From contig NC_088307.1 in the NCBI RefSeq assembly GCF_032854445.1, positions 7,268,017 to 7,332,016 on the forward strand: 64,000 nt of DNA, written 5' to 3'. Positions 33,201 to 64,000 of this stretch are shown piece by piece. The notes under the pieces are model-generated. The model was not told the DNA's origin and ran no database searches. It saw only the letters and a list, made by a program, of their open reading frames with translations. The stretch is from Liolophura sinensis (lineage: Eukaryota > Mollusca > Polyplacophora > Chitonida > Chitonidae). The position numbers and the translations under genes are program-made. The number at the start of each line of letters is the position of its first letter. The first letter of the stretch is position 1.

Positions 33201-36139
33201 TAGATCCAGTCCACAAGTAGACACTGAGTGGCTGTCAAGTAAAAAGCAACATTGCAGTCTAGATCCAGTCCACAAGTGGACTCTCAGTGGCTGTCAAGTA
33301 TAAAACAACATTGCAGTCTAGATCCAGTCCACAAGTGGACTCTCAGTGGCTGTCAAGTATAAACCAACATTGCAGTGTGGATCCAGTCCACAAGTGGACA
33401 CTTAGTGGTGTCAAGTATAAAGCAACATTGCAGTCTAGATCCAGTCCACAAGTGGACTCTCAGTGGCTGTCAAGTATAAAACAACATTGCAGTCTAGATC
33501 CAGTCCACAAGTGGACTCTCAGTGACTGTCAAGTATAAAGCAACATTGCAGTCTAGATCCAGTCCACAAGTAGACACTCAGTGGCTGTCAAGTATAAACC
33601 AACATTGCAGTCTAGGTCCAGTCCACAAGTGGACACTCAGTGGCTCTCAAGTAAAATTTATTTATTTATTTATTTGATTGTTGTTTTACGCCGTATTCAA
33701 GAATATTTCACTTATACAACGGCGGCCAGCATGATGGTGGGAGGAAACCGGGCAGAGCCCGGGGAAAACCCACGACCATCCGCAGGTTGCTAGCAGACCT
33801 CCCCACTTACGGCCGGAGAGGAAGCCAGCATGAGCTGGACTTGAACTCACAGCGACCGTATTGGTGAGAGGCTTCTGGGTCATTATGCTGCGCTAGCGCG
33901 CGAACCGACTGAGCCACGGAGGTCCCTGTCAAGTAAAAAGCAACATTGCAGTCTAGATCCAGTCAACAAGTAGACACTCAGTGGCTGTCAAGTACAAAGC
34001 AACATTGCAGTCTAGATCTAGTCCACAAGTAGACACTCAGTGGCTGTCAAGTACAAACCAACATTGCAGTCTAGATCTAGTCCACAAGTAGACACTCAGT
34101 GGCCATCAAGTTTAAAGCAACATTGCAGTCTAGATCGAGTCCACAAGTAGACACTCGGTGGCCGTCAAGTATAAACCAACATTGCAGTGTGGATCCAGTC
34201 CACAAGTAGACACTCGGTGGCCGTCAAGTATATAGCAACATTGCAGTCTAGATCCAGTCCACAAGTAAACACTCAGTGGCTGTCAAGTATAAACCAACAT
34301 TGCAGTCTAGATCCAATCCACAAGTGGACACTCAGTGGCTGTCAAGTACAAACCAACATTGCATTCTAGATCCAGTCCACAAGTAGACACTCAGTGGCTG
34401 TCAAGTATAAACCAACATTGCAGTCTAGATCCAATCCACAAGTGGACACTCAGTGGCTGGCAAGTACAAACCAACATTGCAGTCTAGATCCAGTCCACAA
34501 GTAGACACTCGTTGGCCATCAAGTACAAAGCAACATTGCAGTCTAGATCCAGTCCACAAGTGGACACTCAGTGGCTGTCAAGTACAAAGCAACATTGCAG
34601 TCTAGATCCAGTCCACAAGTGGACACTCGGTGGCCGTCAAGTACAAACCAACATTGCAGTCCAGATCCAGTCCACAAGTGGAAACTCAGTGGCTGTCAAG
34701 TATAAAGCAACATTGCAGTCTAGATCCAATCCACAAGTAGACACTCAGTGGCTGGCAAGTACAAAGCAACATTGCAGTCTAGATCCAGTCCACAAGTGGA
34801 CACTCAGTGGCTGGCAAGTACAAAGCAACATTGCAGTCTAGATCCAGTCCACAAGTAGACACTCAGTGGCTGTCAAGTATAAAGCAACATTGCAGTCTAG
34901 ATCCAGTCCACAAGTAGACACTCAGTGTCTGTCAAGTATAAACCAACATCCTGTCCACAAGTGGACACTCAGTGGTGTCAAGTACAAACCTTCATTGCAG
35001 TGTGGATCCAGTCCACAAGTAGACGCTCAGTGTCTGTCAAGTATAAACCAACATCCAGTCCACAAGTAGACACTCAGTAGTTTTCCATCATGGTGCTGCT
35101 TAAATACTTATAAAAGTAGTTTATGGACAATATTTTCCGATCTTTGTTGAGTGTGTAATACAGTGTATAAGTCATTGTGAATGTTGAAGAAGTTTTTCAG
35201 TGGTCTGTAAATGGAAAAATATACATGAATGTAAATATTTCTGTTAAATGTGTGTAAATTTCCATCTTGTCAGTAATAAAATTGGGTATCCTAGCTCACC
35301 TCCTGAGATGGTTAAATTTGCTGGTTCTCTGTGACTGTCAGACTATTCAAAGAGGTCACATGTTCAAAATCAGCTGCTTGTTACCAGGGGGCCTTAAATC
35401 AGACACTTTGTCAACTAACAAAGGTTCTATGGTTTACTACAGACACTTCCCCCCCCCCCCCCACTCCCACCCATAATGCTGACTTCGATCATACATGTAT
35501 AAAAGAGTGGAGTGTTGGATACCAATCAAACGAATAAATGAATAAAACTGGTCTTTGTCTCTTCCCATAAGTCCATAGCGACACCTGTTCGCAGTACTGT
35601 GGCTGTATACAGTTATGACCCTGGCGAAGATGGGCAGCTCATGTTCAGGGAAGGGGAGATAATCAGTGTCGAGGAAGATGGTGAGTCGGGTAATGCTGCG
35701 TATTTCACATAAAGCTCAAGTTGGTGTGTAAAATGGACTTCCAAATTCACATAAAGGTGACATAATGGTACTTTTGATGGTAACACTTAAATTTTTTTGA
35801 TAAGAAATTATACTTCACAGAAAACATTAAAGTGATACAGAATCCACTTTGATTGGCTGATAGCGAAGATAGGATTTCCTAGGTGTAAGCCTTCATCTTG
35901 GTCTATGCTTGAATAAATCTGCCTTACCAAAAATTCAGCCTGTGATTGGCATATAGCCTGGATCAGCAGAGGTTCTGTATCCTTTTAAATGGCTCTACGT
36001 TAAAAATTGTCACTTGAAAAACACTTTTCTATTTTCAGTTGATGAGAACTGGTTTCAGGGGAGACTACGAGGGAAAAGTGGGCTGGTTCCGTGGACATAC
36101 GTACAGAGCATAGGGAGAAAAAGTGACATCTTCCACTGA
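12058..36139 (+). CDS. NCF2: p67phox-like NADPH oxidase activator (NCF2/NOXA1 family), ten exons
   Basis: The product should bind active Rac and switch on a NOX2-type NADPH oxidase at a membrane. Exons are about 12058-12230, 15652-15734, 19162-19270, 19691-19825, 20685-20792, 21649-21705, 22917-23259, 29576-29934, 35572-35680 and 36040-36139. All inner junctions are AG/GT and in phase, giving roughly 525 residues. Exons 1-4 form the TPR region (WNEAVLRFTEGRFDDSL, KDEHLAVGHFQHG, LRGHAVIDYRQLG). Arg and Asp at positions known to contact Rac in human p67phox (R102, D108) are kept. Exons 5-6 hold the activation domain (NFLGQAK+VVAALD), keeping the Val equivalent to V204. Exons 7-8 are Ser/Pro-rich with SH3-ligand motifs. 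Exons 9-10 make one SH3 domain. No PB1 domain or central SH3 was found. The start is unresolved (see exon 1). NOXA1 is the alternative name. Confidence 0.9.
12231..13254. other. p67phox-like intron 1, first part
   Basis: It contains a poly-T/poly-G run near 12391-12419 and otherwise featureless AT-rich sequence. Confidence 0.5.
13255..13514. repeat. Fold-back palindrome, arms about 80 bp
   Basis: The arm 13255-13330 matches the reverse complement of 13430-13514, with a loop of about 100 bp. Shared words include ATCATGACTAAAATTAAACT and GAAATGGACTT. It may be a fold-back transposon or an inverted duplication inside intron 1. Confidence 0.8.
13520..13835. repeat. Diverged direct duplication of about 130 bp
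   Basis: The segments near 13520-13640 and 13720-13835 share ordered words: GGCCA..CTGTCTA, TCAAAATA.TTCTA, TTACCAT/TTACCCT, ACTTCTAG and ATGATTACG.AATAC. They look like an old tandem duplication. Confidence 0.5.
14575..14705 (+). mobile_element. SINE family B, 3' part
   Basis: The tail ATCATATGGCTGAAAAGTTG TTAAGTATGG..AAACCCCAAGCA ends in ATTC repeats. It matches the 3' end of the full copy at 55019-55380. Confidence 0.75.
14826..14910 (+). repeat. Unclassified dispersed repeat C, copy 1
   Basis: CCTAATTCATCAACCTTTCT, GAAAGAGCA and GTAATTTGATTTTGGAGACA also occur, on the other strand, at about 61045-61175. Part of it recurs at 21140-21190. Confidence 0.6.
15331..15540 (+). repeat. Unclassified dispersed repeat A, copy 1
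   Basis: It shares an ordered series of words (GCCCATTTTTCCTGATTCTG, GTAAGTTTCAGCAC, ATTTATTTGCCTCT, GGGTGAAATTTTAGGTCA) with copies near 26.0, 27.9 and 28.3 kb. Confidence 0.7.
15652..15734 (+). CDS. NCF2: p67phox-like gene, exon 2 (TPR2)
   Basis: The acceptor ACTGTTACAG and a GTACTG donor bound 83 bases. The exon encodes SFTKTVQKDEHLAVGHFQHG and more, and ends with two bases of an Arg codon finished by exon 3. The Asp of KDEH aligns with Asp67 of human p67phox. Confidence 0.85.
15735..19161. other. p67phox-like intron 2
   Basis: AT-rich, with a (TCTG)n run near 15795-15820 and several A/T homopolymers. I saw no exon, SINE or array here. Confidence 0.45.
19162..19270 (+). CDS. NCF2: p67phox-like gene, exon 3 (TPR3 and Rac-contact loop)
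   Basis: Acceptor CTGTTTACAG and a GTACAC donor bound 109 bases. It encodes ISSALDSFQKAYFYLRGHAV and IDYRQLGLNIKLYAMQ, the segment matching the human LRGN..IDY Rac-binding stretch. Confidence 0.92.
19691..19825 (+). CDS. NCF2: p67phox-like gene, exon 4 (TPR4)
   Basis: Acceptor TATTTTCTAG and a GTACCT donor bound 45 codons, from VLLNLALCWCRRDKTKALKW to SRALMAVQ, in phase 0 at both ends. Confidence 0.92.
19876..20160 (-). mobile_element. SINE family B, near full length
   Basis: The reverse strand reads a degraded tRNA-like head (GATCAAACTCGGG), CCAAAGACTTTAAAAATGG, CTTGGCACTCAGCA, GTGTCAGTATAATGTGACTG and the tail CATATGAGTGAAAAATTGTT. It lies in intron 4, about 50 bp after exon 4. Confidence 0.8.
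20248..20298. repeat. 15-bp direct repeat, about 3.5 copies
   Basis: GGTGAGAACATGTAT is repeated head to tail in intron 4. Confidence 0.9.
20685..20792 (+). CDS. NCF2: p67phox-like gene, exon 5 (start of activation domain)
   Basis: Acceptor TGTTTGCAG and donor GTAAGG bound 36 codons. IFRPSKTVVDNLQQRNFLGQ aligns with the human segment leading into the activation domain. Confidence 0.92.
20870..21006 (-). mobile_element. SINE family A, 3' part
   Basis: A family A tail and core lie on the reverse strand in intron 5, 78 bp after exon 5. Its start is a T-rich run (reverse of the ATAA tail). Confidence 0.88.
21140..21190 (+). repeat. Dispersed repeat C, fragment
   Basis: TACCCTAATTCCTCAACTGT followed by GTGAAAGAGCAACCTTCAGT matches the copy at 61045-61175. 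Confidence 0.5.
21649..21705 (+). CDS. NCF2: p67phox-like gene, exon 6 (activation domain core)
   Basis: Acceptor TTTTGTCAG and donor GTAAAT bound 19 codons, VVAALDLSDTFTGFAGPRK. The first Val aligns with V204 of human p67phox, which is needed for oxidase activation. Confidence 0.9.
21774..22440. repeat. 35-bp minisatellite, about 19 copies
   Basis: The unit GTTCTGGTTACAGCCACTGT CATCTAGTCATGGAG fills the start of intron 6, with decayed copies to about 22575. It does not include exon 6 sequence. Confidence 0.95.
22917..23259 (+). CDS. NCF2: p67phox-like gene, exon 7 (Ser/Pro-rich)
   Basis: Acceptor TTTTCCCAG and donor GTGAGG bound 343 bases. The exon encodes a Ser/Arg/Pro-rich low-complexity stretch (SSSSAISPKSVSPKRQ) and the proline cluster KQRPPPPTAPPPRLPHRK, a likely SH3 ligand. 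Many Ser-Pro pairs are possible phosphorylation sites. It ends one base into a Glu codon. Confidence 0.85.
23260..26031. other. p67phox-like intron 7, first part
   Basis: Holds a short three-copy repeat of TTTGTGTAACATTTTAT near 23992-24038 and a SINE tail at 25521-25595. No exon was recognised. Confidence 0.45.
25521..25595 (+). mobile_element. SINE family A, decayed tail
   Basis: GTCGCATAAATGAAATATCC, TAAAACACCAGTCGCC and AATAAACAAATAAA mark an old 3' end of family A. Confidence 0.6.
26032..26252 (+). repeat. Dispersed repeat A, copy 2
   Basis: TTTTTCCTGATTCTG, ATTTATTTGCCTCT and GGGTGAAATTTTAAGTCA occur in the same order as in the 15.3 kb copy. Confidence 0.65.
27540..27690 (+). repeat. 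Displaced fragment of the 30-kb minisatellite
   Basis: About 150 bp is almost identical to 30235-30385, inside the AGCCATTTCTCTTTCATTTA array 2.7 kb downstream in the next intron. It has the same internal irregularities (TTTATGTTGTTTAACC). Confidence 0.85.
27848..28045 (-). repeat. Dispersed repeat A, copy 3
   Basis: The reverse complement follows the 15.3 kb copy: GCCCATTTTTCCTTGTTCTG, GGTTTGCTTGGAACATGG, GTAAGTTTCAGCACC and CCTAATGGACCTAAAATTTC on the given strand. A 19-bp unit repeated three times follows at 28044-28100. Confidence 0.7.
28331..28445 (+). repeat. Dispersed repeat A, partial copy 4
   Basis: CAAGTTACAGCACCAAAAGT and GACATTTATTTGCCTC match the other copies. Confidence 0.5.
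28846..29575. other. End of intron 7, with (AATG)n and array fragment
   Basis: An (AATG)n run lies at 28850-28878. The stretch 29050-29105 (AATTGTTCAGCCCGTTTTCT) matches the array at 30487-30535. The rest is AT-rich with no exon seen. Confidence 0.5.
29576..29934 (+). CDS. NCF2: p67phox-like gene, exon 8 (proline-rich)
   Basis: Acceptor CTTTTTTACAG and donor GTATAT bound 359 bases; the acceptor at 29575 is the one that keeps the frame from exon 7 (split Glu codon). It has REAPKRPPPVPHF and CQPPSRPPPRPPPDK, both likely SH3-binding motifs. It ends in phase 0. Confidence 0.85.
29996..30680. repeat. 31-bp minisatellite (AGCCATTTCTCTTTCATTTA)
   Basis: About 22 irregular copies occur in intron 8. 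Pieces of the same array are found in intron 7. Confidence 0.92.
30737..30994 (+). mobile_element. SINE family A, nearly full length
   Basis: It begins with GGTGGTTAGTGTGCTATGGC (tRNA-like A box), has the B box GAGCTCAAGTCC, the conserved core and the CACCAATCAAATGAATAAA tail. Confidence 0.92.
31150..35085. repeat. 59-bp satellite, about 60 copies
   Basis: The unit contains CATTGCAGTCTAGATCCAGT CCACAAGTAGACACTCAGTG and a variable GCTGTCAAGTATAAACCAA part. It occupies most of intron 8 of the p67phox-like gene, is broken once by a SINE, and decays at the right end, where partial units lack TCTAGA. The long frames here are by-products of the repeat. Confidence 0.97.
33656..33925 (-). mobile_element. 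SINE family A, full length, inside the 59-bp satellite
   Basis: The best copy of the family in the window. On the minus strand it runs from GGACCTCCGTGGCTCAGTCG (A box), through GAGTTCAAGTCC (B box) and the core, to the ATAA-rich tail. CTNTCAAGTAAA flanks it on both sides (33644-33655 and 33926-33937), a 12-bp target site duplication with one mismatch. Confidence 0.95.
35090..35571. other. End of intron 8
   Basis: Contains a poly-C run at 35449-35461 and no recognisable exon; the PB1 domain was looked for here and not seen. Confidence 0.45.
35572..35680 (+). CDS. NCF2: p67phox-like gene, exon 9 (first part of SH3)
   Basis: Acceptor CTTCCCATAAG and donor GTGAGT bound 109 bases. TVAVYSYDPGEDGQLMFREG is the typical ALYDY-type start of an SH3 domain, followed by the acidic RT/n-Src region EIISVEED. 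Confidence 0.92.
36040..36139 (+). CDS. NCF2: p67phox-like gene, exon 10 (end of SH3, stop)
   Basis: After acceptor TATTTTCAG the frame reads DENWFQGRLRGKSGLVPWTY and ends at TGA 36137-36139. The Trp, the GKSGLVP block and the final Tyr are the usual SH3 ligand-pocket residues. Confidence 0.92.
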
Positions 36140-43543: not shown

Positions 43544-46500
43544 CTGAAAACATTGACAGATTTCATACAGTAATATTTATATATGTATTATATTTTTGGT
43601 GTTTTACACCTTACTGAAGAATACTGGACTTAAGTGCATTGGTGAGGGGCTCCTGGGTCATTGTGCTACACTAGCATGCTAACCAAAAGGCCACAGAGGT
43701 GCATCATGTTGAACAGATCATACAGGTAACGAATATAACAAGATAAATCAAAGAAAAAATTCAGGACAAATATGGCCACAACTCTGTCAACAAGAGACAA
43801 CGATCCAAAACAAAGTTGTATGATGAATCAAAAAAAGCCTGGAAAACCAATTCTTGTCAGACTCATGTACAGATGGACAGACACATGCCCGCTAAACCTG
43901 TGCTCTCTTTCTCCACCCCCCCTCCCTCCCCCGGGAGGGAACCAATCAATGATGTTGATGTGCTTCCCTAATATAGCTACACTATAGCTAGATATCTTGT
44001 TTCCCCTCGGTTCTGCAAAGGTTCCCTACCATCATAACGTTGGCCTTCATCTGAAAGTGATATATTGTTGACAACGTCCTAGAACACCAATCAAATAAAT
44101 AAATAAGTAAATCTCTATCTTGTAATCGAGATGACTTACCTCCTCTTTCTCTCGCTTGATCCTCGCGATTTCGGCACGCGTCTGACTCAGTTGTGACTCC
44201 AGGTCCATGATCCGACTCTGCAGAGTCCGCTCCTGATAAAAACAACGACCACAACACGCAAAAGATGAAGATATTTTGCAGTTCTTGGCAAAGGAACAAT
44301 ACAAATGTGATTTGTAACACTTAATTACAGCAAGATTAGCTAAAATGCAATAAACTTGTACATTTAATAAATGTTTACCTGTAGGCATGAATTTCATACT
44401 TGTTGACACAATCCATACTCCTTACCTCACCTACCTCTCTACACTCATTTTACATCACGCAAAGGTCACTGGCCTCACGGTTATGAGACAGGAAGTGGTG
44501 TCAGAAACATAAACTCTGGCTCAACCTTTGTTTCCAATAACACATTATATACGTACACATGCATTCTCTTTATCTAAAGAATGACTCGAACCAACACCTG
44601 AAAACACTTCATTACTGAACGTTCATTAAATAATTCAGTATGAGAACACCTGTGGTGAGGCAAAGCCCAACCAAGCCTTCATGCGTCCCACAGACTTCAA
44701 AGGCCAAGCTTGTCTATTGGCGGCAGTTACATAGAGGGAACCTGTAGAGAGTGGCACATGTACTGTAACAAGTATGGGCATGACTGCATATCCTGTGATG
44801 AAAAAAGGACCAACCTTTGTGGAAAGACGGTCTCGATTCTGGGCCTCCTGTCGTCGAGCATCTCCCAGAGAGTTCTCCAGTTGTCTTGTCAAGCTAGAAA
44901 CTTCACGGGTCTTCTCCTCCAGACGCAACTGATCACAACAAATAGGTAAATTAATCAATGATTTCCTTATTGCCCACCTTTATGACATAAGTAGAGTAAA
45001 AGCAGCGACAGCTGGATTTGAACACACGACCGCAATGGGCCAGCCCTTTATTAATCTGAGACACTGAGGTCCCTTGAAGTTCTCCATTTTTAATTAGCCA
45101 AATTACTCTAAATGCCTTTTCATTCACGGGCATAAACCTTTGCGGATTTGGTAAGAAGACACATTCGCGGGAATCAACTTTCGCGGATCTTAAAAGAATT
45201 TTGGAACAACTGATAAACGAAAATCAAACTTCAAGTATTACGTCAAATAATAAAACAACTCAAGCATTCCAGTAACAATGTCATCATTTAAACTTGTTTG
45301 TACCTGTACGACGTGACAAAAGAAGTTAATCCTGCTAAGCTTTTAATCTTGTGAAGACAGTTAATCTTTATAAGATGAAGCCCTTATACCTGCTGTGTGA
45401 GCAAATATTCGTGTCACTCACTACAGGAGACAAAGAAAGATTAAATGTGATATAAATAAATCCCACTGTTTAATTCTCATGATTCAACAGTGCGAGTGAG
45501 ACTTTGAGTGAACTGTGACAGATTTGAGTAAATGTCTCAGAAATCGTCATTATGAAAGGAGGTCTGAAGTGCAGAAACCCCCGAGCGATGTATCGGGCGC
45601 ATCGGAAAGGTGATCTGACTGGAAGAAAATTACAGTCAATAAAAAACAGCCTCTCTCATCGTATGTATAACCTATCACGTACACACGCACAGTACAAATT
45701 ATCAATTTGTATGTCTCCAACCGCGGCAATAAATCAACAACAACATCGCAATGTGGCGATACTTAGACGGAGCCAAGCCTCCTTAAAAGAAAACGAGATT
45801 AACTGACAATCAATTAAGCTGGATTTTTGAACGCCAGAATACATTCTAATTAGGTATTTCTAATTAATGTGTTTGAAAAAGCATTAGAACTGTAGTGCTT
45901 GCTAACAAATTTATAACTGTAAAGCATGCTACATTAATAAATTACTTACATGGGTTTTATACTTGATGGCACTTACTTTCGCGAAAGTGTGTTTGCTGCG
46001 AAATCTGTGAATGTTAGTACCATGCAAATAAAAAGGCACTTACAGTAGTTGGTACTTGTGTATTTTTTTGCCTCTGCAAAATAATTTTAAGTCCCTTTTT
46101 TAAGATATGAATATTGTATGGCAATAATAGTTTTGACATCATCCCTGTCCCACAAAGCGAAATGATCCCTGTCTCTCAGAGTGTCCCCACCAGTTCATAG
46201 CAGCACGGACGTGTACCCACCGTATTCTGATGGATGGTCTCTTCTCGCTTAGCTATGGTCATCAGCAGCTCTCTCACCTGGTCTTCAGATTCGCGCAGCT
46301 TCCTGTCAAACACAATTTATTTATCTGATTGGCGTTTTAAGCCATACTCAACAATATACCTGGTTACCACCAAATCATACACAGCACAATAAACAATTGT
46401 AATAAATACTTTAAATGGCCTCAAAACAAGATCAATAGAACTCTAAGTACCATGTAAAAGGATCAACTTGACCACGGACAAAATTTTAGGTCAAACACAG

Positions 46501-49500
46501 CATATGAAAAATATTTGTTTATACAAAGGTGAAATGTAAGAATTTCCTTCCATGTAAAAAGTGATATTATCTCACTCAGTTAGATATCACTTTTGCTATT
46601 ACACACTCAGATGACATGATGTCAAAAAAGAAACATTTTGTTCATAATGGTCTAATTCAAGCTCAGTCAGAAGACGTCATAATACATCAACTTCAACGTT
46701 CCTACGTCACGCATCAAGACACAAAGTCATACAAGACGTCATGCTACCTACAAGTCTGTGAGCAAGTCCTGCAGCTAAAATATTCAATCTGTAAACGTTC
46801 AAAAGACACAAAATCCTTGTATTATCAAAATATAAATAATAAACAGAATATAGTTGGGACTATCTATGTAACAGCTTCTACATCTGACTTGACTAAGACA
46901 GTAAACCTGATCCCTACCGCTCCATAGTCTACAGTTTACTGACAGCTTTGACTATCTATGTAACAGCTTCTACATCTGAATTGACTAAGACAGTAAACCT
47001 GATTCCTACCGCTCCTCAGTCTACAGTTTACTGACAACTTGGACTATCTATGTAACAGCTTCTAGATCTGACTTGACTGAGACAGTAAACCTGATCCCTA
47101 CCTCTCCACAAACTCCAGTTTATTGACAGCTGGGACTATCTATGCATCAGCTTATAGATGTGACTTGACTGAGACAGTAAACCTGATCCCTACCTCTCCA
47201 CAGTCTACAGTTTACTGACAGCTGGGACTATCTGTGTAACAGCTTCTAGATCTGACTTGACTGAGATTGTAAAACTCATACCTACCTCTCCACAGTCTCT
47301 AGTTTACTGACAGCTGGGACTATCTGTGTAACAGCTTCTAGATCTGACTTGACTGAGACTGTAAAACTCATACCTACCTCTCCACAGTCTACAGTTTACT
47401 GACAGCTGGGACTATCTGTGTAACAGCTTCTAGATCTGACTTGACTGAGACAGTAAACCTGATCCCTACCGCTCCTCAGTCTACAGTTTACTGACACCTG
47501 GGACTATCTATGCAACAGCTTCTACATCTGACTTGACTGAGACTGTAAAAATGATACCTACCTCTCCACAGTCTAAAGTTTACTGACAGCTGGGACTATT
47601 TATGCAATAGCTTCTAGATCTGACCTGACTGAGACAGTAAACCTGATCCCTACCTCTCCGCCGTCTACAGTTTACTGACAGCTGGGACTATCTGTGTAAC
47701 AGCTTCTACATCTGACTTGACAGAGACAGTAAACCTGATCCCTACCTCTCCTCAGTCTACAGTTTACTGACAGCTTGGACTATCTATGTAACAGCTTCTA
47801 CATCTGATCTGATTGAGACAGTAAACCTGATCCCTACCTCTCCACAGTCTACAGTTTACTGACAGCTGGGACTATCTATGCATCAGCTTCTAGATGTGAC
47901 TGGACTGATACTGTAAACCTGATCCCTACCTCTCCGCCGTCTACAGTTTACTGACAGCTTAGACTATCTATGTAACAGCTTCTACATCTGACTTGACTGA
48001 GACAGTAAACCTGATCCCTACCTCTCCACAGTCTACATTTTACTGACAGCTGGGACTATCTATGCATCAGCTTATAGATGTGACTTGACTGAAACAGTAA
48101 ACCTAATCCCTACCTCTCCACCGTATACAATTTACTGACAGCTGGGACTATCTGTGTAACAGCTTCTACATCTGAATTGACTGAGACAGTAAACCTGATC
48201 CCTGCCGCTCCACAGTCTACAGTTTACTGACAGCTGGGACTATCTGTGTAACAGCTTCTAGATGCGACTTAACTGAGACAGTAAACCTGATCCCTACCTC
48301 TCCACAGTCTACAGTTTACTGACAGCTGGGACTATCTATGTAACAGCTTCTAGATGCCACTTAACTGAGACAGTAAACCTGATCTCTACCTCTCCACAGT
48401 CTACAGTTTACTGACAGCTGGGACTATCTATGCATCAGCTTATAGATGCGACTTAACTGAGACAGTAAACCTGATCCCTACCTCTCCACAGTCTACAGTT
48501 TACTGACAGCTGGGACTATCTGTGTAACAGTTCCTAGATGCGACTTAACTCAGACAGTAAACCTGATCCCTACCTCTCCACAGTCTACAGTTTACTGACA
48601 GCTGGGACTATCTATGCATCAGCTTATTGATGTGACTTGACTGAGACAGTAAACCTGATCCCTGCCGCTCCATAGTCTACAGTTTACTGACAGCTGGGAC
48701 TATCTGTGTAACAGCTCCTAGATGCGACTTAACTGAGACAGTAAACCTGATCCCTACCTCTCCACAGTCTCCAGTTTACTGGAAGCAGTCCTCTGCTCTT
48801 CCTGAGCAGTGTGAAGTTTGTCTCGTAGCTGCTCTAGCTGATCTCCCTGAACCTCCACCTGTAAAAACACACACATACAAACTTTAATATAAAAATACCA
48901 TATGAATGGTTTTCTTCAGAAACAATTTTACTATGTCACCATTGTGTCTTGATCTTTGTAGCATGATGTCTAAAATGGCACAATTATACAGACTACAAAT
49001 CTCTTGCACATGATATTTCTAGCTCACTGTAAGAAGACGTTACTGTTCTATCACATGCTACACTGCACCCGGTCTCATGTGAACTAGCTGAGAGAAGTGA
49101 CAGCTATCTGTTTGACCTGTACATTCGCATCTGTAATCAGTCTGTTTAATATCAATGTAATTCTTTTGACAGTTTAATTTTACGAGTAAACCTGTTAGGT
49201 TTTAGACCAGAAGAAATAGCAATGGTAAGAGTATTAAACTACCCCAATTTGCCAGATGGGAGTGTTTCCTCTTCTGAAAATTTTATTTATTATTTAATTG
49301 ATTGGTATTTGACACTGCAAGAATTTTCACTTTCACGCTGGTGGTCAGATTCGTGGGTTGAGTAAACCAGCCCAAAATGCATAAGTTTATTTTATTTATT
49401 TGATTGATATTTTATGCCCTATTCAAGAATATTTCACTTATACGACGGCGGCCAGCATTATGGTGGGAGGAAACCCTGAATGTATAAGGACAGCACCTTT

Positions 49501-55500: not shown

Positions 55501-58500
55501 AATGATAACATATGTTGTAGAGATACAAAGCACACTTAGCTAAGTAAGACCTTCACTTCAATGACAAGGTACGTCGTAGAGATACAAAGCACACTTAGCT
55601 TAGTAAGACCTTAACTTCCATGATAACATATGTTGTAGAGATACAAAGCAAACTTAGCTAAGTAAGACCTTCACTTCAATGATAACATATGTTGTAGAGA
55701 TACAAAGCACACTTAGCTAAGTAAGACCTTAACTTCAATGACAAGGTACGTCGTAGAGATACAAAGCAAACTTAGCTAAGTAAGACCTTCACTTCAATGA
55801 TAACATGTTGTAGAGATACAAAGCACACTTAGCTTAGTAAGACCTTAACTTCAATGATAACATATGTTGTAGACATATAAAGTACACTTAGCTAAGTAAG
55901 ACCTTCACTTCCATGATAACATATGTTGTAGAGATACAAAGCACACTTAGCTAAGTAAGACCTTCACTTCAATGATAACATATGTTGTAGAGATACAAAG
56001 CACACTTAGCTAAGTAAGACCTTCACTTCAATGATAACATATGTTGTAGAGATACAAAGTACACTTAGCTAAGTAAGACCTTAACTTCAATGACAAGGTA
56101 CGTCGTAGAGATACAAAGCAAACTTAGCTAAGTAAGACCTTCACTTCAATGATAACATATGTTGTAGAGATACAAAGCACACTTAGCTTAGTAAAACCTT
56201 AACTTCCATGATAACATATGTTGTAGAGATACAAAGCACACTTAGCTAAGTAAGATCTTAACTTCCATGATAACATATGCTGTAGAGATACAAAGCACCC
56301 TCAGCTAAGGACCATTGTATAACACTAAGAACGCTTTGTGAAACTTGGGCTGATTCCAGAAGTCCCTTAAGCCAAGATTTAAAAACATTCAAATTTTGAC
56401 TTTAAGTCAAATGGTTTTGTGCAGCCCCCTGATAAAAAGACAAATGATCGAAGGCAAAATTCTCCAAACAGCCCCACAATTGTCAGACCGCTTACTGTCA
56501 CCTAGAAGAGTGCACGGATTGAACCCGCACCAATCAGTTTTCCTCGATGAGTTCTCACCCATTTTCAGTTTCAGCAATATGACATATGGCATGAAGTCCA
56601 GGAATAATCACACGACGGAAACAAAGACAGGTATGACAGGTAACATTTCCGTACATTCCCAATCTGTTAATGCTTCATAGGGAGATAGTAACTGTGATGA
56701 AAAGAAGAGCTGTGCGCAAAAATGACAGCAACATTGTTATATACCACAGACATGGCAAATGCAGTATGCAGACATGGATGCAATATGAAAACAAAAGTGA
56801 AAGTGTAAAAGTTGCATAGGCTACACAAAGAAAGATGATTAATGATACATGTACTTCTGACGCTGAAGCCAGTACTGTGGCTGTCTGGTGGCACAATATG
56901 GCTCAGAAAGCTCACAATGTTTACATCTAGAGTAAGTATGTTAAATGAAATTGATACACTCAAGCTAGTGCAGAGTCTTATGGTATAATGCAATGTGGTG
57001 CAAAAAGTCCACCATATTATCAAGAATAAGCATGCTGAATGATGCTTGTTACACTCAAGCTAGTGCCGTATTTCATGATATAATGCAATATGGTCCAAAA
57101 AGCCCACCATACTTTTATCTAGTGTAAAGCCATCCAAGACACCAGAATTCCGATATGAAGTGGACATGCACATGACCCAGGGCTATATTACCAGACAGGC
57201 AGCACCTACCCTCAGTGACTGTAAATTCTTACTCTGATCAAGGAAATGTACTGTCTGTAAACACACAGTTTGTAAAATTATACAAAAAAAACAAAACAAA
57301 ACAAAACAAACAAAAACATTTTAACTTTCAGACTGCAAATCTACTGTAATATGTAACCTTTAGAGGGGTCAGGAAGAAAACAAATGAAGTACGGATCGTT
57401 AAAGGCAAACTGTATGTAAAAATATACCTGCCAAGTATAACAATTATTTATATAATTATTTAATTATTTAAGAAGTCATGGTTCACAGGAGCATAAAATA
57501 AAATTTTGATGATGAGATAATAAATCCACAACAACAACAACCAACCAAGATGATTTCTACTCCTGTATGAAGTCTGGATGACCTTTTATACACAAACATA
57601 CAAGCCATGTGAGCTTAGTGTCAACAAACTAATGTAGGTGTGTCTCTCATCAGAGTGCCATGCCCATACTCGTGACACATCACAGCACCCGCCCCACCTT
57701 ACCAATACCCACTCACGACATGCAGCCACACTATGCTGCCGTACACAAAGTCTATCCATTTCACAAGCTGAGATGTTTCAGAGAGGAATGAATGGGCTTG
57801 ATTATGGGCTGATGTCCCTTTGGCAATATTGTAGCCATATTGTGGCGAGGACTTACGAGTGGAACAGGAGGTACAACTGAACAGATTTCTCACAGATCTG
57901 ATATGTTCAGATACACTACTTCTCCTACAAAGTACCCACCAAAGAGGTACCAAATAGGGGCCACTTTCACGAAAAAAGTTTCACGTAATATTTTTGCAAA
58001 TGATGTTGTCTAGACTGTAGCTCCATAAGGGCGATGTGATTTATGTGAAAAGTTATGAAAAAATGATTTATGAAGTTTTGTGCAAAATGGTTATGCTCTG
58101 TCTCATTTTTCTAACAATGTCACACCTGTCATTAACTTGATACACCTGAATCATGCTGTCTGTGGCAGGTATATAATGTCAGAGCTGTCTGGGGCAGGTA
58201 TATAATGTCACACCTGTCATTAACCTGACATACCTGAATCATGCATTCCCCTACTAAGTTCAAGAACTGTTTGGTGCAGGTATATAAAGTCACACCTGTC
58301 ATTAACCTGACATACCTGAATCATGCATTCCCCTACTAAGTTCAAGAACTGTTTGGTGCAGGTATATAATGTCACACCTGTCATTCACCTGACATACCTG
58401 AATCATGCATTCCCCTACTAAGTTCAAGAACTGTTTGGTGCAGGTATATAATGTCACACCTGTCATTCACCTGACATACCTGAATCATGCATTCCCCTAC

Positions 58501-60343
58501 TAAGTTCAAGAACTGTCTGGGGCAGGTATATAAAGTCACACCTGTCATTAACCTGACATACCTGAATCATGCATTCCCCTACTAAGTTCAAGAACTGTTT
58601 GGTGCAGGAATATAAAGTCACACCTGTCGTTAACCTGACATACCCGAGTTATGTATTCCACTACTAAGTTTTTGTACTGTAGGAGACGGGTACACAATGC
58701 AATTAATCAGGCATACTTGATTCCTGTACTCCTCTAATGATGGAGACAGGTAAATCTACATGATGTCACACCTGTAATTAACCTGTTTTACACGAGTCCA
58801 GAATTCAAATTCTCCAACTGTTGGAGACTGGTAAATAATGTCATACCTGTAATTCATCTTACGTACCAGAGTTCTGCATTCCTGTACCAAATTCTTGTGC
58901 TGCCTGAGACGGGTATATAATTTCACACCCGTAATTAATCTGACATACCTGACTCCTGTACTCCTCTACCAAATTCTCATACTGTCTGAGGTTTGCCCTT
59001 AGCTGATCTATCTCCTCCTCACTCTGGTTAACTTTACTCTCCAGGCTGGAGACTGTAGACTGTGAACACAATAAAACATCTTTGTGAATATGAGAAAACA
59101 TCACTGTGAACACAAGACAACATCACTGTGAACACAAGACAACATCACTGTGAACACAAGACACCATCACTGTGAATATGAGAAACACTGTGAACATTTC
59201 TCATATTGTGAATGAGAAAACATCAATGTGAACACAAGACAACATCACTGTCAACACAAGACAACATCATTGTGAACACAAGACATCACTGTGAACACAA
59301 GACAACATCACTGTCAACACAAGACAACATCACTGTGAACATGAGAAACACTGTGAACATTTCTCATATTGTGAATATGAGAAAACATTAATGTGAACAC
59401 GAGACAACATCACTGTCAACACAAGACAACATCATTGTGAATATGAGAAAACATAACTGTGGACGCGAAAGAACATCCATGTGAAAACGAGACAACATCA
59501 TTGTGAACATGATAAAACATCACTGAGAACAAGAGACATCACTGTGAACACGAAAAAACATCCCTGTGAACATGAGAAAACATGGGATCTTTCAAAGGGC
59601 CTTTGGGCCATTGTGAAAGAGTTGACTTTTTTTTCTTACTTTATGGCTTTCTTCAGTTTTACAGTCAATTAGTCTAATGGCATTTGATTTCTGAATATCT
59701 GAATATTTTAAAATACTGGTGGAGGAAAAATGTTCAGGTTCTATTATCATTATTATATGATACTTTTTGTGACAATTGCTGACAAAAAAAACGGAACAAT
59801 GAATTCAGATGTGAAGGGTAAAATTATGTGTGGGCCACAATTTTATTTAAATATTTTTTAAATATCATGCCACTTTGCAAACTGTGGTTCCACAAAGCGA
59901 TTCTGCACATACGGTTTTGTAAAAACTGGGGCAATGTTTGAACGAGTTATTGCCCAGGATCACAAAGCGATCTTAGACTTAAGTCAAAATTTCAATCATT
60001 AAATTCGTTATGTTCCATTCCATTATTTTAGCTGAAATTTGAAATAACTTACCCTGAATCTACATTGTCTAGCAATGTTTTGACGTTGTTCGGAAATGAA
60101 CAATTTCAAAGTGAATTGAATTAAAGTCTAAGGTGGCTTCGCGATCCCGAGGCCTAAAACTAAAGCATGATGACCCAAATTACTGTTTACGTGTTCAGCT
60201 GTCTCACCCTAAGTCTTTCATTGTCCAGTCTGAGGCCCGTGAGCTCGCTGGTTTTGTCCTGAAGCTGAACTGACAAGTCTTCCGTTTGTGACTTACTGCT
60301 CTCCTCAACTCTGTCCAACATACGCTCCACTTCTGTTATTCTC
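43370..60343 (-). CDS. ODF2: ODF2/cenexin, C-terminal nine exons (5' end beyond window)
   Basis: ODF2 is a coiled-coil protein of mother-centriole appendages, basal bodies and sperm-tail dense fibres. Exons in gene order: 60343-60208, 59059-58949, 51490-51386, 50611-50453, 48858-48758, 46302-46221, 44928-44815, 44232-44140, 43543-43370 (stop TCA at 43370-43372). All inner borders are AG/GT and in phase, giving about 357 residues, near half of a vertebrate ODF2. The string of matches to the vertebrate C-terminus is long and in order: LRLDNERLR, YENLVEEYRSQ, LQELDPLPEMLKSTE, YERKN, TIAKREETIHQ, LRLEEKTRE, RLYDLKDRLEQS, STNRSMQNYVQFLKNSYANV, FGE, SSPLRS. Almost all of it is heptad-type coiled coil. 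Several introns carry minisatellites anchored on its splice sites. Identity is firm; ODF2L is less likely because the SMQNYVQFLK tail is the ODF2 type. Confidence 0.92.
43595..43702 (-). mobile_element. SINE family A, internally deleted
   Basis: The tail (GGTGTTTTACACCTTACTGA on the given strand) joins directly to the head (TTGGTGAGGGGCTCCTGGGT..CTAACC). It sits in the last ODF2 intron. Confidence 0.75.
43998..44112 (+). mobile_element. SINE family A, diverged 3' part
   Basis: The core is altered, but CCTAGAACACCAATCAAATA and the ATAA tail are clear. It ends 28 bp from an ODF2 exon. Confidence 0.75.
44140..44232 (-). CDS. ODF2: ODF2 exon (penultimate)
   Basis: 31 codons, ERTLQSRIMDLESQLSQTRA and EIARIKREKEE, phase 0 at both ends; coiled coil. 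Donor GTAAGT. Confidence 0.92.
44815..44928 (-). CDS. ODF2: ODF2 exon
   Basis: 38 codons containing LRLEEKTREVSSLTRQLENS and LGDARRQEAQNRD, in the order found in vertebrate ODF2. Donor GTTGGT is weaker than its neighbours. Confidence 0.92.
44929..46220. other. ODF2 intron
   Basis: A decayed family A head-like piece may lie at 45006-45076 (TTTGAACACACGACCGCAAT). The rest shows no recognisable element. Confidence 0.4.
46221..46302 (-). CDS. ODF2: ODF2 exon
   Basis: 82 bases. After completing an Arg codon it reads KLRESEDQVRELLMTIAKRE and ETIHQNT; the IAKREE.IHQ motif is diagnostic. Donor GTGGGT. Confidence 0.92.
46316..46362 (-). mobile_element. SINE family A, tail fragment
   Basis: TTTATTTATCTGATTGGCGT TTTAAGCCATACTCAACAAT is the reversed 3' end only. 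It touches the acceptor region of the ODF2 exon at 46221-46302. Confidence 0.7.
46850..48782. repeat. 92-bp minisatellite built on an ODF2 5' splice site
   Basis: About 21 units. On the given strand each contains CCTACCTCTCCACAGTCTAC AGTTTACTG, which is the reversed last part of the exon 48758-48858 with its GTAGGG donor. The remainder (GGGACTATCTATGTAACAGC TTCTAGATCTGACTTGACTG) is intronic. The real exon forms the right edge of the array. Confidence 0.95.
48758..48858 (-). CDS. ODF2: ODF2 exon at the edge of the 92-bp array
   Basis: 101 bases, VEVQGDQLEQLRDKLHTAQE then EQRTASSKLETVE and two bases of an Arg codon. Acceptor TTTTTACAG, donor GTAGGG. The copies in the array mostly turn CTG-GAG into CTG-TAG in this frame. 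Confidence 0.92.
49283..49353 (-). mobile_element. SINE family A, decayed tail
   Basis: TTTATTATTTAATTGATTGG TATTTGACACTGCAAGAATT is a diverged reversed tail. Confidence 0.5.
49387..49474 (-). mobile_element. SINE family A, 3' part
   Basis: A cleaner reversed tail and core run to TGGTGGGAGGAAACCC. It is followed by a MITE family 1-like piece (CCTTAACTACCACGACAATG, 49518-49572). Confidence 0.8.
49618..49812 (-). repeat. Unclassified dispersed repeat, copy 2
   Basis: The reverse complement matches 5637-5830 (see that entry). Confidence 0.65.
50453..50611 (-). CDS. ODF2: ODF2 exon
   Basis: 53 codons, VKLRLQQRLQELDPLPEMLK through YERKN to LIAELTAK. The LPEMLK.TE.KL.E and YERKN blocks match vertebrate ODF2. 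Acceptor TGTCCACAG, donor GTACGA. Confidence 0.93.
50612..51385. other. ODF2 intron
   Basis: AT-rich with a poly-T run near 50758; nothing recognised. Confidence 0.4.
51386..51490 (-). CDS. ODF2: ODF2 exon
   Basis: 35 codons, MNRSRREADDTMCRLEETQK then ENDRIQRDGEVELER, phase 0 at both ends. It aligns with the vertebrate ODF2 stretch after the YKSQ motif. The initial Met is internal, not a start. Confidence 0.9.
52217..52553. mobile_element. MITE with about 32-bp terminal inverted repeats
   Basis: TAAAGCCGGGAACAGACTAA ACAGATTTTTTT on the left mirrors AAAAAATCTGCCTAGTGTGT CCCCGGCTTTA on the right. AAAATCTGCCTAG also occurs twice inside. No protein is encoded; the transposase family is unknown to me. 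Confidence 0.85.
52575..52745. repeat. Short repeat of ACACATACAGGTATCATTGT
   Basis: Three to four diverged copies of a 34-bp unit follow a CATACATACATAC run. Confidence 0.8.
52770..54525. other. ODF2 intron, featureless part
   Basis: AT-rich, with a G-run near 53456-53475. No exon or element was recognised. Confidence 0.35.
54526..54594 (-). CDS. Possible ODF2 cassette exon (weak)
   Basis: On the minus strand CCTTTCAG precedes 23 open codons (FLEYNLKYPDRPLPDFLTRF RSR) and a GTGAGA donor. It is phase 0 at both ends, so it could be included between the exons at 58949 and 51490 without a frame break. The proline-containing sequence is unlike ODF2 coiled coil and has no counterpart I recall, so it may be chance. 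Confidence 0.25.
54779..56352. mobile_element. MITE family 1 with an internally amplified satellite
   Basis: CAGTGCCCAGTTTGACAAAG CA (54779-54800) is mirrored by ACGCTTTGTGAAACTTGGGC TG (56331-56352). Between them are about 20 copies of a roughly 59-bp unit (AACTTCAATGATAACATATG TTGTAGAGATACAAAGCACA CTTAGCTAAGTAAGACCTT). The 42.86 kb copy shows what an unamplified member looks like. A family B SINE is nested inside. Confidence 0.75.
55019..55380 (+). mobile_element. SINE family B, full length, nested in the MITE satellite
   Basis: The tRNA-like head has TAGCACAGTTGGTAGAGCG (A box) and GGATCAATCC (B box). The body has GGCGTTCAGCAT, CCCGTATCAGTATAATGGCT; the tail has GTCATATGACTGAAAAATTG, ACGACGTTAAACCCC and (ACTC)n. 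TCCATGA occurs just before and after, suggesting a short target duplication. Confidence 0.92.
56400..58110. other. ODF2 intron
   Basis: A GGATTGAACCCGCACC stretch near 56515 resembles a tRNA B box on the minus strand. A (CAAAA)n-like run lies at 57281-57318. No exon was recognised. Confidence 0.35.
58120..58948. repeat. About 80-bp minisatellite built on an ODF2 5' splice site
   Basis: Nine to ten units. Each holds CTGACATACCTGAATCATGC ATTCCCCTACTAAGTTC, a diverged reversed copy of the end of exon 58949-59059 with its GTATGTCAG donor, plus TATATAATGTCACACCTGTC of intron origin. The units become less alike toward the exon. Confidence 0.92.
58949..59059 (-). CDS. ODF2: ODF2 exon flanked by arrays on both sides
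   Basis: 37 codons, STVSSLESKVNQSEEEIDQL RANLRQYENLVEEYRSQ; the YENLVEEYRSQ end matches the vertebrate YEGMID.YKSQ block. Acceptor TGTTCACAG, donor GTATGT. Confidence 0.92.
59060..59600. repeat. 22-bp minisatellite built on an ODF2 3' splice site
   Basis: About 24 irregular copies of AACATCACTGTGAACACAAG AC begin exactly at the acceptor of exon 58949-59059. On the coding strand every unit repeats the TTGTGTTCACAG acceptor. Confidence 0.92.
59953..60152. mobile_element. 200-bp MITE with terminal inverted repeats
   Basis: CCCAGGATCACAAAGCGATC TTAGACTT at the left is mirrored, with changes, by AAGTCTAAGGTGGCTTCGCG ATCCCGAGG at the right. Noncoding; in an ODF2 intron 56 bp from an exon. Confidence 0.75.
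60208..60343 (-). CDS. ODF2: ODF2 exon (first one inside the window)
   Basis: 136 bases: one base finishes a codon from the upstream exon, then RITEVERMLDRVEESSKSQT and DKTSELTGLRLDNERLR. LRLDNERLR matches vertebrate FKLENERLK. Acceptor GATGTTACAG, donor GTGAGA. Confidence 0.9.
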
Positions 60344-61175: not shown

Positions 61176-61570
61176 CTAAGATGTAGTCTAATATCAGATT
61201 AATATCAGTACAAACATAAATTATTACGATTTCAGTCTTAGCAGAGAAACCAACAAAACAACACTGTTAAATGTTATAAATGTTAAATACAACACTCGTG
61301 TTGAGTCCTACAATGGTGTTCTCTGTCATCAGTCTGAAAGTCGATTGTAACGGGCAACATTCTGTCAGTCAATGAGTTTGTTAACATTCATCCCATATAC
61401 GACTACAAAGTATTATGTTTGGTCTTTGGGTTACTTGGTTCTAATTCACTATGAATTATTACAGGGATGTATGTGTAAGTTGAATGCCTGTTACTCTAGT
61501 TGCTACACACTGTCAATGTTAAATGCACATTTAAGTCCAACAAGGTAGTGCTCGTTGCATATTAAAGTGA

Positions 61571-64000
61571 GACACTCACTGCTGGAGCTTTGTGTCCATG
61601 CTGATACTTGTCGTTCAGGTTACACACGTCACATACAATGTCACAATCACTACACTCTTCATGCCCAATACTACAAGGTAAGAATTCAGCCAGTCAGTCA
61701 GTCAGTCAGTCAGTCAGACACTCACGGCTGGAGCTTTGTGTCCATGCTGATACTTGTCGTTCAGGTTACACACGTCACATACAATGTCACAATCACTACA
61801 CTCTTCATGCCCAATACTACAAGGTAAGAATTCAGCCAGTCAGTCAGTCAGTCAGTCAGTCAGACACTCACGGCTGGAGCTTTGTGTCCATGCTGATACT
61901 TGTCATTCAGGTTACACACGTCACATACAATGTCACAATCACTACACTCTTCATGCCCAATACTACAAGGTAAGAATTCAGCCAGTCAGTCAGTCAGTCA
62001 GTCAGTCAGACACTCACGGCTGGAGCTTTGTGTCCATGCTGATACTTGTCGTTCAGGTTACACACGTCACACACAATGTCACAATCACTACACTCTTCAT
62101 GCCCAATACTACAAGGTAAGAATTCAGCCAGTCAGTCAGTCAGTCAGTCAGTCAGACACTCACGGCTGGAGCTTTGTGTCCATGCTGATACTTGTCGTTC
62201 AGGTTACACACGTCACATACAATGTCACAATCACTACACTCTTCATGCCCAATACTACAAGGTAAGAATTCAGCCAGTCAGTCAGTCAGTCAGTCAGTCA
62301 GACACTCACGGCTGGAGCTTTGTGTCCATGCTGATACTTGTCGTTCAGGTTACACACGTCACATACAATGTCACAATCACTACACTCTTCATGCCCAATA
62401 CTACAAGGTAAGAATTCAGCCAGTCAGTCAGTCAGTCAGTCAGTCAGACACTCACGGCTGGAGCTTTGTGTCCATGCTGATACTTGTCATTCAGGTTACA
62501 CACGTCACATACAATGTCACAATCACTACACTCTTCATGCCCAATACTACAAGGTAAGAATTCAGCCAGTCAGTCAGTCAGTCAGACACTCACGGCTGGA
62601 GCTTTGTGTCCATGCTGATACTTGTCATTCAGGTTACACACGTCACACACAATGTCACAATCACTACACTCTTCATGCCCAATACTACAAGGTAAGAATT
62701 CAGCCAGTCAGTCAGTCAGTCAGTCAGTCAGACACTCACGGCTGGAGCTTTGTGTCCATGCTGATACTTGTCGTTCAGGTTACACACGTCACATACAATG
62801 TCACAATCACTACACTCTTCATGCCCAATACTACAAGGTAAGAATTCAGCCAGTCAGTCAGTCAGTCAGTCAGTCAGACACTCACGGCTGGAGCTTTGTG
62901 TCCATGCTGATACTTGTCGTTCAGGTTACACACGTCACATACAATGTCACAATCACTACACTCTTCATGCCCAATACTACAAGGTAAGAATTCAGCCAGT
63001 CAGTCAGTCAGTCAGTCAGTCAGACACTCACGGCTGGAGCTTTGTGTCCATGCTGATACTTGTCGTTCAGGTTACACACGTCACATACAATGTCACAATC
63101 ACTACACTCTTCATGCCCAATACTACAAGGTAAGAATTCAGCCAGTCAGTCAGTCAGTCAGTCAGTCAGACACTCACGGCTGGAGCTTTGTGTCCATGCT
63201 GATACTTGTCATTCAGGTTACACACGTCACATACAATGTCACAATCACTACACTCTTCATGCCCAATACTACAAGGTAAGAATTCAGCCAGTCAGTCAGT
63301 CAGTCAGACACTCACTGCTGGAGCTTTGTGTCCATGCTGATACTTGTCGTTCAGGTTACACACGTCACATACAATGTCACAATCACTACACTCTTCATGC
63401 CCAATACTACAAGGTAAGAATTCAGCCAGTCAGTCAGTCAGTCAGACACTCACTGCTGGAGCTTTGTGTCCATGCTGATACTTGTCGTTCAGGTTACACA
63501 CGTCACACACAATGTCACAATCACTACACTCTTCATGCCCAATACTACAAGGTAAGAATTCAGCCAGTCAGTCAGTCAGTCAGTCAGTCAGACACTCACG
63601 GCTGGAGCTTTGTGTCCATGCTGATACTTGTCGTTCAGGTTACACACGTCACATACAATGTCACAATCACTACACTCTTCATGCCCAATACTACAAGGTA
63701 AGAATTCAGCCAGTCAGTCAGTCAGTCAGACACTCACTGCTGGAGCTTTGTGTCCATGCTGATACTTGTCGTTCAGGTTACACACGTCACACACAATGTC
63801 ACAATCACTACACTCTTCATGCCCAATACTACAAGGTAAGAATTCAGCCAGTCAGTCAGTCAGTCAGTCAGTCAGACACTCACGGCTGGAGCTTTGTGTC
63901 CATGATGATACTTGTCATTCAGGTTACACACGTCACACACAATGTCACAATCACTACACTCTTCATGCCCAATACTACAAGGTAAGAATTCAGCCAGTCA
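61571..64000. repeat. 146-bp tandem array, 17 units to the window edge
   Basis: Units start at 61571 and then every 146 bp, or 138 bp when the (CAGT)n tract is two units shorter. They are nearly identical; variable sites are CGG/CTG, CGTTCAG/CATTCAG and CACATAC/CACACAC. On the minus strand each unit holds AAAGCTCCAGC(C/A) followed by a GTGAGTG donor. On the plus strand each holds TTCAG and CAAGGTAAG. The unit length is not a multiple of three, so the many 121-residue frames are artefacts. Confidence 0.97.

Follow-up and report, generated by a model that had tools for sequence, protein, structure and literature searches.

A 92-bp minisatellite containing an exon end and its 5' splice site in an ODF2-like gene of the chiton Liolophura sinensis

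The host gene and the array at its exon boundary

The window analysed in this study, a stretch of 64,000 nucleotides of Liolophura sinensis contig NC_088307.1 (positions 7,268,017 to 7,332,016), carries on its minus strand a gene that looks ODF2-like. Ten exons between 64201 and 43386 were joined at predicted splice sites, giving one stop-free frame of 412 amino acids, with 27 and 21 stops in the other two frames; exon ends were picked by hand among scored candidate sites so that the phases fit, and 16 of the 17 gene peptides were located. The first of the ten exons is situated just past the window, in the neighbouring stretch L009. The encoded protein is a coiled coil, and the last exon of the gene, from the stretch near RSMQNYVQFLK, is presumably that of ODF2. 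A Pfam search with a 97-aa piece returned 82 families at E values up to 1, the best 25 of these 82 all being under their own cut-offs, and Pfam searches with further pieces of the gene returned little and no family naming the protein. Comparison with the PDB yielded 21 chains at E values up to 10 (best 0.056), ODF2 being absent among them, and no chain at an E value of 0.001 when the 412-aa model was used.

One coding exon of this gene (48758..48858, minus strand; 101 nt, entered in phase 0 and left in phase 2) ends in CTGGAGACTGTGGAGAG followed by GTAGGG, so that its terminus reads GAGAG/GTAGGG and the real donor, at 48758/48757, is GAG/GTAGGG. The next exon downstream (46221..46302, minus strand) joins in frame to this donor as AG/G. 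The exon had already been called in the initial annotation, and the call was upheld, since the exon belongs to the ten-exon chain with the stop-free 412-aa frame.

The end of this exon lies within a tandem array (46850..48781, minus strand; 21 units of 92 bp, 20 of them within the intron), for which TRF gave a period of 92, 20.9 copies, 89% matches and 0% indels at 46855-48781. When the minus strand was cut every 92 bases from 48781, 21 units were obtained in exact register, the final one ending at 46850. The first unit, at 48781-48690, is made up of 24 bases from the 3' end of the exon and 68 intronic bases that start with the donor. An array of about 21 units of 92 bp, including the last 20-odd bases of the exon and GTAGGG, is what the initial annotation had described, and it is borne out here; alignment of the units to the exon, which it had proposed as a check, gave 1-4 mismatches over the 24 exonic bases in each of the 20 intronic copies.

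The annotation had also spoken of about 20 decoy 5' splice sites. Twenty intronic copies do exist, but two of them (units starting at 48689 and 48229) have GC at the donor, GT being retained in the other 18. Over the donor 9-mer, 11 of the 20 are identical to the real site, three read GAGGTAGGT, two have the GC and four are otherwise altered; in the three intronic copies carrying GTAGGT, the T at +6, a base closer to the donor consensus, is the sole difference from the real 9-mer. The change from CTG-GAG to CTG-TAG, previously read as a change of frame, proved to be a substitution within the homologous codon, with CTGTAG found in 15 of the 20 intronic copies and CTGGAG retained in one, at 47125.

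Further arrays at exon boundaries

The same gene contains a second array copying a donor. Upstream of the exon described above, an exon at 58949..59059 (minus strand) ends at the donor GTATGT, and its end and donor were aligned with ten places in 58905-58122, scoring 36-66, whereas other intron sequence scored 21 and 200 shuffled queries reached at most 30 (hits scoring below 30 were dropped). These places make up an array of approximately 82-bp units (58122..58905, minus strand), with ten aligned copies, some of them decayed or gapped, all ten having GT at the donor as read by eye from the alignments. At its other edge, the exon 59059-58949 is reached by an acceptor-like 22-bp array (59059..59583, minus strand), whose tgttcacag units run up to the acceptor. 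Thirteen tgttcacag-like ends were counted by pattern, the real acceptor included, and the array is nearly free of exonic bases.

The third donor-copying array (61566..64000, minus strand) consists of 17 copies of a 146-bp unit with CCAGC(C/A) before GTGAGT, and it begins at the end of the exon L009:201-22, just past the window. The last 18 bases of this exon match at 14 of 18 positions in each of the 17 units, beside the common GTGAGTGTCT. The units were located by the donor string. Of 30,000 18-mers drawn at random from the window and L009, 10 reached 14, some of these possibly from the array itself. An acceptor-like end was also seen in each 146-bp unit, along with 91 nt that are open in one frame in 17 of 17 copies. 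A repeated exon was considered for this open frame and rejected, since its length is not divisible by 3 and no Pfam family was returned.

Two further arrays lie outside the gene. In L013, about 12 kb past the low end of the window, an exon with a good codon score holds, in its last 23 bases, the start of a 45-bp array (3.6 copies), most of whose copies have lost the donor (GT in one of three, as judged by eye). In L024 (on C7), an 89-bp array of 26.9 copies (L024:3467-5845), containing AGGTAAGA 20 times, begins in a possible exon; the sequence at its start is open and bears an acceptor and a strong donor, but has a negative codon score and two open frames, and this array is regarded as a candidate for a further donor case.

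Detection of these cases depended on the method. A first automatic scan returned four rows, with the 92-bp case below its thresholds. A second scan of 59 arrays found the 92-bp, acceptor and L013 cases and missed the 82-bp case, for which the wrong exon was scored, and the 146-bp case; these two are based on alignment by hand. From the 59 arrays scanned and the two hand alignments, the clear donor cases are the three in the gene and L013, which leaves one clear case and one candidate outside the ODF2-like gene, and those outside may be no more than chance.

In order to assess the clustering within the gene, the seeds of seven arrays (at least 2.5 copies, hand-listed from TRF) were placed randomly in a 20.8-kb stretch with 18 exon edges. 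At least three of the seven spanned an edge in 0.31% of trials and at least four in 0.013%, in a gene that had been chosen for one such array and with two 59-bp arrays among the seven that are possibly related. Without the 92-bp array given originally, at least two of six spanned an edge in 2.7% of trials and at least three in 0.14%. Since, strictly speaking, the 22-bp array does not cross its junction, three of seven and two of six are the fair counts.

Splicing, turnover and origin of the 92-bp array

Tandem duplications of exon/intron boundaries have been described in amphioxus as "mirages" (PMC3087553). The 92-bp array shares two features of this class, a unit that spans the exon-intron boundary (24 exonic and 68 intronic bases, in 21 units in register) and a splice signal in many of the repeats (GT in 18 of the 20 intronic copies), both as read from genomic sequence. 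We consider it highly probable that the array is a mirage-type minisatellite in which the real donor is used and the copies are near-neutral passengers, and a repeat of this type in the gene is probably harmless. Under the duplication mechanism that we infer, a 92-bp segment made up of the end of the exon, the donor and the start of the intron would have undergone germ-line tandem duplication, and the array would then have grown and turned over by whole units, through unequal exchange or slippage. The 5'-most donor would have remained joined to the real exon and would serve in splicing, while the intronic copies would persist as nearly neutral passengers, either ignored by splicing or with the mis-spliced transcripts presumably removed by nonsense-mediated decay. 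This scheme is supported by the anatomy, the register of the units, the single locus found in the genome, the nearness of the exon-bearing unit to some nearby copies and the reading frame, which is kept with the real donor. A similar arrangement at two more exons of the gene and in L013 also speaks for it.

The predicted consequences of using a copy are uniform. Splicing from any of the 20 copies to the acceptor at 46302 would terminate translation at the 35th codon of the exon (20 of 20), as the stop arises at the real donor itself (GAG AGG TAG). The extended exon thus already meets a TAG at that point, and the CTG-TAG stop of the copies is irrelevant to exon extension. The reading frame is compatible with the real donor and with none of the 20 decoys.

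It could be argued on this basis that the copies act as a switch, in which splicing from any of them brings a stop and nonsense-mediated decay and the array tunes the protein level. The 18 GT sites, the 11 that equal the real 9-mer and the three that depart from it by the T at +6 would suit such a role, as would the same stop codon whichever copy is used, and human IFI6 offers a precedent for repeat units serving as donors (PMC4526556). We regard the switch as improbable, however, because the donors show no excess of conservation over the remaining unit and the amphioxus mirages are reported to splice normally (PMC3087553, PMC3902484). Donor positions have 1.33 changes per site against 1.29 in the rest of the unit, and the donor 9-mer ranks only 60th of 92 circular windows when these are ordered from the most conserved; selection on the decoy donors, which was considered, is unsupported by this rank. 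Donors that are not preserved, together with the codon-35 stop for every decoy, fit passengers rather than a selected device. The tolerated source of alternative splicing suggested in the initial annotation gains no support here either, given the ordinary conservation of the decoy donors, the truncated protein that each of them would yield and the normal splicing of the published amphioxus cases. With 11 identical 9-mers and three GTAGGT sites among the copies, the donor itself gives no reason why the first one should win.

In the units of 48781-46850 the donor sits between CAGTAAACT and GGTTTACTG, which could form a 9-bp stem. Pairing is full in 15 of the 21 units (in one via G-U) and involves 6 to 8 of the 9 positions in the other six. 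An RNA hairpin masking the donors was examined and rejected, the folds of five stretches showing no advantage over shuffled sequence (z -0.60, -0.32, -0.42, 0.45 and 0.39).

The units differ mutually by 2 to 17 bases, and those lying farther apart in the array tend to be less alike (Mantel r 0.234, p 0.0056). A unit's closest relative is nonetheless a median of 5 steps off, and the mean difference is 9.4 at one step and 8.37 at two. Between the exon-bearing unit and unit 48321 there are 2 differences in 92 positions, and 3 separate it from unit 48597, against 12 for its direct neighbour 48689; in the unit tree it clusters with 48597, 48321 and 48413 (support 95/95), in a tree where 13 of 18 inner branches are weak. 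As neighbouring units are not the closest in sequence and the exon-bearing unit differs from its neighbour by so much, turnover has not been simple duplication of neighbours; the near-identity of the exon-bearing unit to some copies indicates that the exon end itself joined in recent exchange. The GAG codon of the exon, kept where most copies have TAG, may be held by selection.

An incorrect copy number or unit order, introduced in assembly, appears very unlikely. The assembly, published as Liolophura japonica (PMC11068029) and since corrected to L. sinensis (PMC12441733), was built from 14x HiFi reads with a mean length of 8,347 bp (PMC11068029), with which collapse or expansion of repeats is possible; against this, units that are 2-17 bases apart can be placed, the mean read exceeds the 1.9-kb array and the exon overlap is independent of copy number.

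The far end of the array adjoins a dispersed repeat (46515..46851, minus strand) with genome-wide matches outside the locus. A search of the genome with the intronic array, which skips very common words, returned one candidate, its own locus. When the flanks were included, the locus and 40 other listed matches were found at 70-82% identity (40 of 1089 first-look candidates were scored), and all 40 listed fall within query 2040-2408, corresponding to 46861-46493 of the window, entering the array by a few bases at most. As the listed matches are confined to the abutting repeat and the array search gave a single locus, the array apparently grew in place, up to the edge of the repeat. That a mobile or dispersed repeat landed at the exon edge, or that the array spread from the adjoining element, is hardly credible even though the dispersed repeat meets the array at 46851, because the unit contains the coding end of its own exon in register, the array search (very common words skipped) gave no second locus and the 40 listed matches reach no more than a few bases into its far end. 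Tandem amplification across the junction, as first proposed, is thereby supported by units that are in register, begin in the exon and occupy the single genomic locus found.

Relation to known boundary repeats and frequency of the arrays

In amphioxus, mirages are reported from Adh3 and the globin genes BflGb6 and BflGb9 (PMC3087553), and lancelet troponin C and imperfect duplications of PGBD5 have been likened to them (PMC3902484). Adh3 data and globin RT-PCR are described as suggesting regular splicing (PMC3087553). The 92-bp array is like those described there in having a boundary-spanning unit, AG/GT signals in many units and turnover among units (PMC3087553, PMC3902484). In amphioxus, 5' as well as 3' boundaries may be involved (PMC3087553, PMC3902484); the chiton gene has three donor arrays and one 22-bp array that reaches an acceptor with almost no exonic base. 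The chiton cases differ in their host, a mollusc, and in array size: the 92-bp array has 20 intronic copies and the 146-bp array 17, whereas the two BflGb6 haplotypes are given as having 6 and 3 units of 150-160 bp. Units at the cluster boundaries of BflGb6 are said to be excluded from homogenisation, whereas the chiton exon unit is among near-identical ones. Splicing and instability were tested in amphioxus; the chiton array is known from the sequence of one assembled haplotype.

In human IFI6 (6-16), two downstream repeat units act as donors, giving mRNA variants (PMC4526556). The chiton array resembles that minisatellite in that a repeat placed at the end of an exon provides a series of donors, but the IFI6 copies are described as used in mRNA, while those of the chiton are putative donors by sequence. 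The minisatellite unit attributed to Turri et al. in 1995 is reportedly short. Gain of introns through tandem duplication of an AG/GT-bearing segment has also been proposed (Rogers 1989; Gao and Lynch 2009; cited in PMC3087553). The starting duplication is of the same kind, but the chiton intron pre-exists and is lengthened by the copies, and no new intron was seen.

A narrowly worded literature search, with most subscription journals outside it, found no molluscan report of such repeats. The kind of repeat is already known from lancelets, with a related case in one human gene, and the chiton arrays extend it to a mollusc, with three donor cases in one gene. Each array is a natural setting in which to test how splicing settles on the first of about twenty near-equal donors and whether new introns or exons can come from junction-spanning duplication.

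Whether 5' splice junctions are favoured sites of origin for the minisatellites of this chiton, which would make boundary-copying arrays general and recurrent in a lophotrochozoan genome, is a wider proposition that we hold to be doubtful. If true, such arrays would be no lancelet oddity and many genes would have to splice past rows of equal donors. Minisatellites are common (period at least 15, at least 2.5 copies), covering 19,009 of 150,000 bases in 15 round-coordinate stretches. The donor motif AGGTRNG was present in 4 of the 32 arrays of these stretches, against 2.18 expected from shuffles (p 0.19), and in 1 of 10 arrays of five neighbouring stretches, against 0.53 (p 0.41). Among the 17 arrays of the window, which was chosen for such a case, it was present in 5 against 1.18 (0 of 300 shuffles). 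With the stricter AGGTRAG, the counts were 1 against 0.42, 1 against 0.15 and 1 against 0.41 for the 15 stretches, the neighbours and the window (p 0.33, 0.14 and 0.32, respectively). These counts show no genome-wide excess.

Three other repeat features were recorded. The longest array of the window, of 3.9 kb at 31148-35054, is composed of 59-bp units, and the scan linked no exon to it. A 75-bp array of 14 copies (L010:814-1866) has one open frame per strand of about 370 codons, which a unit divisible by three allows. The minus-strand segments 27550-27707 and 30248-30699 have similar repeat translations rich in lysine and glutamate, NERKMAEQLRKDEKEMAEQVEINE.
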